Shown here piece after piece: positions 2,786-4,979 of a stretch of 64,000 bases of DNA. Positions within the stretch are counted from its first letter, which is position 1, and every line of letters starts with the position of its first letter. The translations under genes were made by a program, and so were the position numbers. The stretch is from Thaumarchaeota archaeon casp-thauma3 (lineage in GTDB: Archaea > Thermoproteota > Nitrososphaeria > Nitrososphaerales > Nitrosopumilaceae), in NCBI GenBank assembly GCA_001510275.1, contig LFEY01000017.1:1-64000 (forward strand), in the 5' to 3' direction. The notes below the pieces were generated by a model, which worked only from the letters and a program-made list of their open reading frames with translations, made no database searches and was not told the origin of the DNA.

Positions 2786-2860
2786 GCTCCTATAGTGTAG
2801 TCCGGTTAAGCATTTTGGCTTCTCAAGCCAAAGACTCGGGTTCGAATCCCGATGGGAGCA
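2786..2860 (+). tRNA. tRNA-Glu (CTC)
   Basis: The 75-base gene folds as a cloverleaf. The acceptor GCTCCTA pairs with TGGGAGC (one T-G pair), the anticodon stem TTGGC/GCCAA (2815-2819/2827-2831) encloses loop TTCTCAA with anticodon CTC at 2822-2824, and the T arm is CGGG-TTCGAAT-CCCG. No intron and no encoded CCA. A TATA-like TTTAAATT lies ~25-30 bases upstream. The 3' end of this gene and its flank are imperfectly repeated at 4946-4979 (see repeat). Confidence 0.95.
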
Positions 2861-3000
2861 TTACACATTTGGTTTAAATCTCCCGTGACCCATTTTAGGT
2901 TCAATTTAATGACTAAAATTAATTGATATATTGAAAAATAGAATTTTGGATCAAGTAATTAACTCACAAACTACTTTAAATAAAAAATCCAATAAATTTT

Positions 3001-3684
3001 ATGAAGAAAGGAAATCCCAAAGATCTTGTTCCGATATTTTTTAACGATACTTCTAATTCGTATGATAGAATAGTAAATTATACTACTTTTGGAAAAGATA
3101 GTTTTTGGAAACATAAAATTCTAGAACAATTATCTACTGAAAAAACGGTATTAGATCTTGCTTGTGGTACTGGTATCCTTACAAAACAAATTGCAGAAAA
3201 GCTTCCCCATGCAGAAATTATAGGTGTCGATATTACCAAAAACTATCTTGAAAAGGCCAAAGAAAAATTAATCTCATTTCAAAAAATTTCTTTCGTAAAT
3301 CAAGATGCAGAAAAACTTAATCTAGGAAAAAAGTTTGATTGTATTACTGCGTCATACTTGCCAAAATACTGCATATCTGACGTTCTAGTCAAAAATTGTA
3401 TTGATCATCTTAATGAAGGCGGAAAAATAATTTTACATGATTTTACATATCCAAAAAATAAAATTATGCAAAAACTCTGGAATTTTTATTTTAAAGTGCT
3501 TTTTTTGGCAGGATTTTTTATTCCTAATTGGAAACAGGTCTTTGTTGATCTACCTAATCTAATAAGAACCACGAATTGGGTAAGAGAATACGAAGAAACT
3601 ATGAAAAAATATGGACTAAAAACACATACGCAAGATTTGACATGTGGCTCTTCAACTATTATTGTCGGAACCAAGATTACCTAG
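3001..3684 (+). CDS. Class I SAM methyltransferase, UbiE/MenG-like
   Basis: A 227-residue Rossmann-fold methyltransferase. Motif I VLDLACGTG is near residues 50-58, followed by the acidic end of strand 2 (IIGVDITKNYLEKAKEKL) and the motif QDAEKL near residue 100. The layout matches the UbiE/COQ5 family, which C-methylates quinone precursors, but small methyltransferases are hard to assign by substrate. TATA-like CTTTAAATAA sits ~25 bases upstream of the ATG, implying a leaderless mRNA. Its 3' end overlaps the convergent gene at 3652 by 33 bases. The neighbours resemble a chorismate lyase and a UbiA prenyltransferase, which raises the odds of a quinone role. The exact substrate is not visible. 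Confidence 0.8.
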   Translation: MKKGNPKDLVPIFFNDTSNSYDRIVNYTTFGKDSFWKHKILEQLSTEKTVLDLACGTGILTKQIAEKLPHAEIIGVDITKNYLEKAKEKLISFQKISFVNQDAEKLNLGKKFDCITASYLPKYCISDVLVKNCIDHLNEGGKIILHDFTYPKNKIMQKLWNFYFKVLFLAGFFIPNWKQVFVDLPNLIRTTNWVREYEETMKKYGLKTHTQDLTCGSSTIIVGTKIT

Positions 3685-4089
3685 TCTTATTTCTTCTATT
3701 ATAGTAAACCAAACGATTCCATTATGAATAATTTCATATTCTCTTATTACTTTATTCTCATCATGATTACGATTCAAGGAAATAATATTTCTAGTTGCAT
3801 TGATATTATTTGTATTAAGAATATCACCAACACCTTGTTTTTTCTTTAAAAGTTCAGCCATGATTACTTCAGGTAACACAGTAGAATCAAATTTTACGTT
3901 AGCTTTTATCACTGGAAGCCCCTGTGCCGTAATTGAGACTTTTCTCACAAATTGGTTAGGCACTATAGTGTTCTGTTCAATTACTTCAAGTTTGATATCG
4001 CAATCAAGGGTATCTCTAAGAACAGTAATTACCTTACCTACTGGGGCATCTAATATTCTATTTAACAAATCTTCAGAAAACCCACTCAT
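3652..4089 (-). CDS. Chorismate-lyase-like protein (DUF98 type)
   Basis: 145 residues. The order of motifs fits the DUF98 family of chorismate pyruvate-lyases, which make 4-hydroxybenzoate from chorismate: N-terminal LDAPVGKVITVLRD, a central block ending QFVRKVSITAQGLPVIKA, VGDILNTNNINATRNIISL near residues 87-105, and the C-terminal REYEIIHNGIVWFTIIEEI with its conserved Glu. Family assignment is by recalled pattern and could be wrong. 4-Hydroxybenzoate is used for quinone heads and for methanopterin-type cofactors. It sits tail-to-tail with the methyltransferase and 24 bases downstream of the UbiA-like gene on the same strand, consistent with co-transcription. Confidence 0.6.
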   Translation of the reverse strand: MSGFSEDLLNRILDAPVGKVITVLRDTLDCDIKLEVIEQNTIVPNQFVRKVSITAQGLPVIKANVKFDSTVLPEVIMAELLKKKQGVGDILNTNNINATRNIISLNRNHDENKVIREYEIIHNGIVWFTIIEEIRLGNLGSDNNS

Positions 4090-4113
4090 ACAATATTTTC
4101 CTGTTTTAATGAA

Positions 4114-4800
4114 TTAAAGGTACCTTAAAGCAATAAAGAAGATTGTGCTAAATATTACAACAGAACTTACAATCTTAAGAATTACTTCTTTTTTGTAATA
4201 TGTTTCATAATTAGCATTTTGTCGTTTTAGTTCTTTATATTTTCTAGATGTAACAATCAAAATATAACTTACAATACCGGCAATTGCAGAAAACATTATG
4301 GTTTCAACAGTTATGGAATTAGATTGAATTGCAGCTCCTGCAAAAACAGGTAAAATTCCCCAGGAGATTACAAATGATAAATTGTTGTGAAATTTACCAC
4401 GAAATAATTCAAGATTATATGCAAAAAGAAAAAACACTTCCATTATTCCTATTGGAAATAGTAACCAAGAATCTAAAAAAATGTAATACAATCCAACAGA
4501 AAAAGATATGATTAAGGAAATTATTGCTGCTGACCAAAGCTTTGAGTGTGATATGTCCCCCCAAGGCTTTTTCTTACTTCCTAATGCATCAAGACAATGT
4601 GCGGATATACCGATTGCAAAAAAATAGAGTAAACTAATGGATCCTATCCTATCAAGACTAAATTCTACTGAAAGAGAACCCCATATGGCAAAGGATACCA
4701 CCATTCCAGTGTATGGTAGAAATAAAATCCCCATTGATAATCTAAAATTTTGAGAACCAAATTTTGGGACAAACCATTCAGATAATCTGTCTTCTTGCAT
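4114..4800 (-). CDS. UbiA-superfamily-like integral membrane protein
   Basis: 228 residues with about seven hydrophobic segments. After the second segment comes HCLDALGSKKKPWGD (~residues 67-82), which sits where UbiA prenyltransferases carry their Asp-rich motif. Later there is NLELFRGKFHNN followed by a WGILPVFAGAA segment (~residues 125-160), which also resembles UbiA architecture. UbiA enzymes attach polyprenyl chains to aromatic acceptors. The canonical NDxxD is not intact, so this may be a divergent or non-catalytic relative. The gene probably heads an operon with the chorismate-lyase-like gene. The C-terminal half ends in a final membrane helix. Confidence 0.5.
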   Translation of the reverse strand: MQEDRLSEWFVPKFGSQNFRLSMGILFLPYTGMVVSFAIWGSLSVEFSLDRIGSISLLYFFAIGISAHCLDALGSKKKPWGDISHSKLWSAAIISLIISFSVGLYYIFLDSWLLFPIGIMEVFFLFAYNLELFRGKFHNNLSFVISWGILPVFAGAAIQSNSITVETIMFSAIAGIVSYILIVTSRKYKELKRQNANYETYYKKEVILKIVSSVVIFSTIFFIALRYL

Positions 4801-4945
4801 TATTTTTTAATAATAATATTACATTAAATGATTTAAACAAAAATTTTATTTTCACACCTATCTACGTCCATTTTTATCCCCGAAATTGTAGGTGATCCAC
4901 GTGGGTTTGAACCTAAAATTGAGGGTCTTGAACTGATCTGACAAA

Positions 4946-4979
4946 ACCCGATGGGAACATTACATATTAGATTCAAAAT
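4946..4979 (+). repeat. Imperfect copy of the tRNA-Glu 3' end and flank
   Basis: CCCGATGGGA at 4947-4956 repeats 2848-2857 exactly, and the match continues imperfectly (CATTACA, then A/T-rich) for about 33 bases with roughly 25 identities, passing beyond the tRNA into its flank. Close by, TTGAACCTAAAAT (4907-4919) is the exact reverse complement of 2892-2904, just downstream of the tRNA. The two together bracket the three genes at 3001-4800. It looks like a decayed attachment-site-type duplication or an old rearrangement. No integrase is nearby. Confidence 0.5.

Follow-up and report, generated by a model that had tools for sequence, protein, structure and literature searches.

Studies have shown that UbiA enzymes bind Mg and pyrophosphate through an Asn/Asp-rich motif 1, a Tyr-Lys motif 2 and an Asp-rich motif 3 (MjDGGGPS; review PMC9385802). 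In E. coli, UbiC, UbiA and UbiE bring together a chorismate lyase fold, a UbiA fold and a UbiE-type methyltransferase, as does the locus described here, and ubiC and ubiA are adjacent, as are our chorismate-lyase-like (CL) and UbiA-like genes. For ammonia-oxidising archaea (AOA), ICE-2 of Ca. Nitrosocaldus cavascurensis has been listed with UbiC, UbiA, UbiE, GGPS and CHLP as cargo, and no function is proposed for UbiC/UbiA/UbiE in the part of the paper that describes this cargo (PMC5797428). According to that list, the arrangement is already annotated in Nitrosocaldus.

In this study, the window was a stretch of 64,000 nucleotides from the ammonia oxidiser Thaumarchaeota archaeon casp-thauma3, a close relative of Nitrosopumilus (contig LFEY01000017.1). 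The first-pass annotation had described a chorismate-lyase-like gene, a UbiA-like gene and a UbiE-like methyltransferase (MT) gene packed together at positions 3001-4800, and the ORF check found three intact ORFs in these places (Table 1). The UbiA-like and CL genes form a two-gene minus-strand operon with the UbiA-like gene first and a gap of 24 bp, and MT is convergent with CL, overlapping it by 33 bp. The dN/dS values against relatives were 0.13-0.30 for the three genes (0.13 for MT), which indicates purifying selection on all of them. Profiles, folds and alignments upheld the three family assignments. We tentatively believe, with confidence somewhat short of even, that these genes are an accessory module of the order Nitrososphaerales, apart from the menaquinone route, for a methylated and probably 4-hydroxybenzoate-derived membrane compound.

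Table 1. Features in and around the module of the window.
Feature	Positions	Strand	Product or size	Evidence or remark
tRNA-Glu(CTC)	2786..2860	+		ARAGORN; adjoins module
Imperfect direct repeat D2, left copy	2845..2878	+		tRNA-Glu 3' end plus flank
MT, UbiE/COQ5-like SAM methyltransferase	3001..3684	+	227 aa	Pfam, NCBIfam, linkage, dN/dS
CL, chorismate-lyase-like (Rv2949c-like/DUF98/UbiC fold)	3652..4089	-	145 aa	profiles, AlphaFold/Foldseek
UbiA-like, UbiA-fold membrane protein	4114..4800	-	228 aa, 7 predicted helices	profiles, model
Imperfect direct repeat D2, right copy	4944..4977	+		module's other side

The single CL sequence scored E 0.062 against PF01947, short of the Pfam cut-off, and 23 of 26 CL orthologues matched this family, the best at 5.5e-8. 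The profile of the CL family matched PDB 2nwi (DUF98, AF1396) at 3.4e-14. The AlphaFold model (pLDDT 91.5) found 2nwi at 1e-8 and the E. coli chorismate lyase at approximately 4e-5 in Foldseek, so the predicted fold is of the UbiC type, as the first-pass annotation had suggested from the letters. R49, G88 and E132 were invariant across the 26 CL sequences and correspond to the catalytic residues Arg76, Gly115 and Glu155 of UbiC. R49 was paired with UbiC R76 by hhalign, and the pairing of E132 with E155 came from the 2nwi alignment and motif inspection by eye. Both the catalytic Arg and the catalytic Glu are thus kept in CL. The Foldseek results also showed that this fold is common to UTRA ligand-binding domains, and CL could therefore be a sensor.

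The MT protein matched the Pfam family Ubie_methyltran (PF01209) at 5.5e-21 and 75 bits, with the motif I LDLACGTGIL and a UbiE-like N-terminal YDRIVNYTTFGKDSFWK. It fell under every NCBIfam equivalog cut-off for UbiE/MenG quinone C-methyltransferases, with 103.7 bits for TIGR01934 (cut-off 158.35) and 108.7 bits for NF001244 (cut-off 216), and it scored 62.9 bits with the MpqE model (cut-off 335). Judging from these scores, its likeness to UbiE is at the family level only.

The UbiA-like protein of the window scored 3.2e-7 alone against PF01040, short of the cut-off, and 16 of its 25 orthologues matched this family (best 6.8e-10). Its AlphaFold model had a pLDDT of 91.2 and 7 helices instead of 9. 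The top PDB matches in Foldseek were UBIAD1, A. fulgidus UbiA, A. pernix UbiA and DGGGP synthase, and the ten best were all UbiA-family structures with a probability of 1.00; the best E was 1.5e-3 and TMq was 0.48-0.60, so that none reached E 0.001. In the profile-profile comparison (hhalign), the UbiA-like profile aligned to archaeal (AOA) MenA with E 1.3e-6 and a probability of 91%. The A1 profile matched no solved structure by sequence. We believe that the protein has the fold of the UbiA superfamily, and this is supported although the Foldseek matches are weak.

The first-pass annotation had also remarked that the UbiA Asp motif was degenerate, and this proved to be true of the whole family. 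The site was read from an alignment of 25 close and 15 distant UbiA-like relatives, down to approximately 26% identity. The canonical motif 1, N-x3-D-x3-D, is changed to A-H-x2-D-x3-[SGNPT]: the Asn position is A, G or S in 40/40 proteins, the first Asp is retained in 39 of 40, and the second Asp is found in 0/40. In the alignment, Glu131 stands at the Lys position of motif 2, and SRKYKELK (family form SRxYKxLK) occupies the place of the third Asp motif. Judged by its sequence, none of the 40 relatives carries the motifs of an active UbiA prenyltransferase. Distant homologues restoring the Asp motifs were looked for in this alignment and were ruled out. The Asn, Asp, Lys and Asp residues for prenyl diphosphate and Mg are missing, and this lowers the claim that the UbiA-like protein works as a UbiA prenyltransferase. 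On the other hand, H68 (which adjoins motif 1), Y128, H138 and W147 are invariant in 40/40 proteins, and the family likewise shows no variation at W9, G148 and P151. The family is thus more than a decayed one and has another conserved site.

We surveyed 151 genomes of the order Nitrososphaerales for the three genes. The UbiA-like gene was present in 87 genomes, of which 80 were strict matches and 7 were weak matches beside MT. MT was present in 74 genomes, and the two occurred together in 72; these MT counts are lower bounds, because G127 and G088 were scored negative and yet have MT adjoining UbiA-like. A few UbiA-like loci were without a detected MT. The two genes adjoined in 67 of the 72 genomes, with the remaining five on different contigs, and the adjacent pairs had three orientations (MT upstream on the same strand in 43, divergent in 14, convergent in 10). 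Fisher's test gave p = 3e-25 for UbiA-like with MT, which is not a calibrated probability since the genomes are related. CL adjoined UbiA-like in 33 genomes, where it was always the next gene downstream and on the strand of UbiA-like (33/33). The linkage of the module genes is far beyond chance, and the clustering is conserved both in AOA and in further families of Nitrososphaerales. The structural match and the co-occurrence on which the first-pass annotation had staked its proposal were thus both found.

CL has a more uneven distribution. Many genomes of the order have no CL, and it is absent from part of the families that have UbiA-like and MT (for example, genus g16 of family f8); it lies approximately 56-58 kb away in two genomes, and it occurs without UbiA-like in 9 of the 151. 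As CL is missing or distant in some genomes, the substrate may not be 4-hydroxybenzoate in every case. In a survey of the phylum, 26 of 300 genomes had UbiA-like matches, with only one outside the order, so the gene is nearly restricted to it. Broken extra UbiA-like copies with several stop codons were seen at G049:C1:1196315-1196853 and G063:C6:50792-51178. UbiA-like genes were also present on contigs labelled Planctomycetaceae (L072), which looks like archaeal contamination, and Manganitrophaceae (L146), where the neighbouring genes look bacterial and a transfer could be the origin.

The frequent neighbours among 80 named loci and the window were MT (69), CL (50), a cupin (29) and an O-methyltransferase (16), and no locus in this set had both CL and the cupin. 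The cupin was found in 7 genomes of family f1, each time adjoining UbiA-like, with one weak match elsewhere. Two of the cupin genomes (G058 and G080) also carry a distant CL, so the exclusion holds at the locus level only. For some members of one family, the cupin stands where CL would be. A cupin of 130 aa, divergent from UbiA-like, was seen in L042, L043-L046 and L095-L132 (many Nitrosopumilaceae-type loci), and the O-methyltransferase (PF01596) is often near the cupin-type loci.

The Nitrosocaldus copies (L133-L135) adjoin conjugation-type ATPase genes, which were identified by eye, and a FlK-like thioesterase lies beside the module in L134 and L135. In the window, the two copies of the D2 repeat are 34 nt long and 82% identical, and from their sequence the pair is a possible old attachment site or integration scar. 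No tRNA-end repeat pair was seen around the modules of the other loci near tRNAs, so integration at the window is a suggestion only. We also considered tRNA-linked integration as a general feature and rejected it, the repeat being confined to the window copy among the tRNA-near loci.

N. maritimus is reported to contain menaquinones (PMC8674956), and Thaumarchaeota are reported to have the futalosine pathway (PMC3914697). The first-pass annotation had raised the module as the route of AOA to menaquinone, and our results speak against this. The window genome has a futalosine-pathway PF02621 protein, a MenA-like UbiA (L179) and a second UbiE-like methyltransferase on contig C26, which we infer to be MenG and to which MT is only 20% identical. 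Many complete Nitrosopumilus genomes are without MT, CL and UbiA-like, which shows that the module is dispensable, and the three of them that were checked (G114, G138 and G150) have the same set: a PF02621 protein, a UbiA of the MenA-like kind and another methylase resembling UbiE. The module is not present in all menaquinone-making AOA. Because a separate set exists in the window genome and also in the module-less Nitrosopumilus, the module is not the menaquinone route.

The window genome has three canonical UbiA proteins, as do the module-less genomes. Two of them, at C21:34566-35372 (L178) and C3:2892-3650 (L177), are typed as heme o synthase by their scores. DGGGP synthase is the best-scoring type for none of the UbiA proteins in the genome, though archaea need this enzyme. 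The same three-protein set is also seen in module-less complete Nitrosopumilus, and one of the two "CtaB" proteins (L177/L178) may be a mis-typed DGGGP synthase.

We tentatively propose how the module could work. CL would convert chorismate to pyruvate and 4-hydroxybenzoate; the UbiA-like protein, with its invariant His/Asp/Glu/Tyr/Trp set in place of the prenyl-diphosphate/Mg site, would hold or modify this aromatic compound or a lipid conjugate of it at the membrane, through a chemistry with no need of the usual Mg-pyrophosphate ionisation; and MT would methylate the resulting compound with SAM. The product would then be a membrane lipid or an antioxidant-like compound, methylated and probably derived from 4-hydroxybenzoate. 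The activity of CL, the chemistry of UbiA-like, the substrate of methylation and the product are what we infer from residues, folds and gene context. Given the altered site, the three genes probably serve to make or modify a membrane compound other than the known respiratory quinone of the cell. In a bolder form, the UbiA-like protein would be a re-tooled enzyme of the UbiA superfamily with a reaction new for the fold, which together with CL and MT gives AOA a methylated aromatic membrane lipid not described so far; we regard this as rather improbable.

The first-pass annotation had proposed a 4-hydroxybenzoate-based quinone pathway, and the families, the clustering and the catalytic residues of CL agree with it, whereas classical prenylation is not supported, since the prenyl-diphosphate/Mg residues are missing. 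In its strict form, 4-hydroxybenzoate would be prenylated by UbiA-like and methylated by MT to give an extra ubiquinone- or plastoquinone-type benzoquinone besides menaquinone. In favour of this, the three enzyme families are those of the pathway, arranged by its logic and translationally close, with a UbiA fold and a kept CL active site. GGPS and a geranylgeranyl reductase also argue for it, which the cargo list of ICE-2 places with UbiC, UbiA and UbiE (PMC5797428) and which lie within 1.3-2.3 kb in L135. However, the Mg/pyrophosphate motifs are lost family-wide, MT is far under the MpqE and UbiE cut-offs, and no decarboxylase or hydroxylase for the path from 4-hydroxybenzoate to a quinone recurs in the cluster among the 80 named loci and the window. 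The geranylgeranyl reductase was tried as a module member, because it adjoins in four loci, and was rejected: with 136/151 genomes carrying it, it belongs to the core genes of the order, so its nearness is incidental. We therefore consider the extra benzoquinone unlikely. The loss of the canonical catalytic residues also fits a reading in which UbiA-like, as a non-catalytic lipid-binding membrane partner, would offer MT a prenylated quinone or lipid, and CL or the cupin would be a small-molecule sensor or regulator of the two. MT and UbiA-like are indeed the core pair while CL and the cupin alternate between loci, the UTRA sensor domains share the fold of CL, and the top fold match, UBIAD1, is a UbiA protein with HMG-CoA reductase as a further binding partner. 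Nevertheless, the four residues H68, Y128, H138 and W147 stay invariant in very distant homologues, which resembles a constrained site and not a dead enzyme, and CL retains both catalytic residues, so we give a partner of this kind a rather low probability.

Archaeal DUF98 proteins are candidates for the supply of 4-hydroxybenzoate to methanopterin-type cofactor synthesis, and CL might serve this purpose beside unrelated neighbours, as the first-pass annotation had allowed. The next enzyme, beta-RFAP synthase, was over the cut-off in 0/12 AOA genomes and in 4/4 archaeal controls; moreover, many genomes of the order do without CL, CL is tied to UbiA-like, and we consider this supply highly improbable. 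Chance neighbourhood, or mobile cargo with no joint function, would fit the patchy distribution, the changing surroundings, the occasional pseudogene copies and the tRNA-end repeat around the window copy, as well as the conjugation genes beside the Nitrosocaldus copies (seen in our loci; see also PMC5797428). It is hard to reconcile with genes that stay together in three orientations and many families under purifying selection on each, and we hold it to be very unlikely.

As nitrifiers, AOA are very abundant, and work on biomarkers and bioenergetics makes use of their quinone and lipid chemistry. If the accessory module that we favor is real, AOA would have, in addition to menaquinone synthesis, another aromatic route from chorismate that leads to an uncharacterised membrane product, and the UbiA-like protein would be a naturally redesigned UbiA fold that can probe the capacity of this fold without Mg-pyrophosphate chemistry. 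The automated annotation of UbiA-like as "4-hydroxybenzoate prenyltransferase" would mislead.

Compared with the ubiquinone steps of E. coli, the UbiA-like protein is without the N/D/K/D site, MT is far under the UbiE cut-offs, and the cluster is without the later pathway genes. Archaeal MenA is the canonical UbiA family to which the UbiA-like profile aligns, but MenA keeps both Asp motifs, and AOA have it as a separate gene. CL resembles the Rv2949c-like/DUF98 chorismate pyruvate-lyases (AF1396, 2nwi) in profile, fold and catalytic Arg/Glu; it is shorter and has diverged in the lineage of the window, and its lyase activity is putative. The methyl-plastoquinone pathway of Nitrospirota (MpqE) shares a UbiE-type methyltransferase and the nitrifier context, although MT, at its score, is not a member of MpqE. 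The ICE-2 set of Ca. N. cavascurensis is probably the same module, with orthologues in L133-L135, and in the part of that paper describing it the set is annotated only, with no active-site analysis or wider distribution (PMC5797428). Against the open-access literature searched, the new points are that the linkage extends across the order, that the active site is altered, that a cupin variant exists and that the module is separate from menaquinone synthesis.
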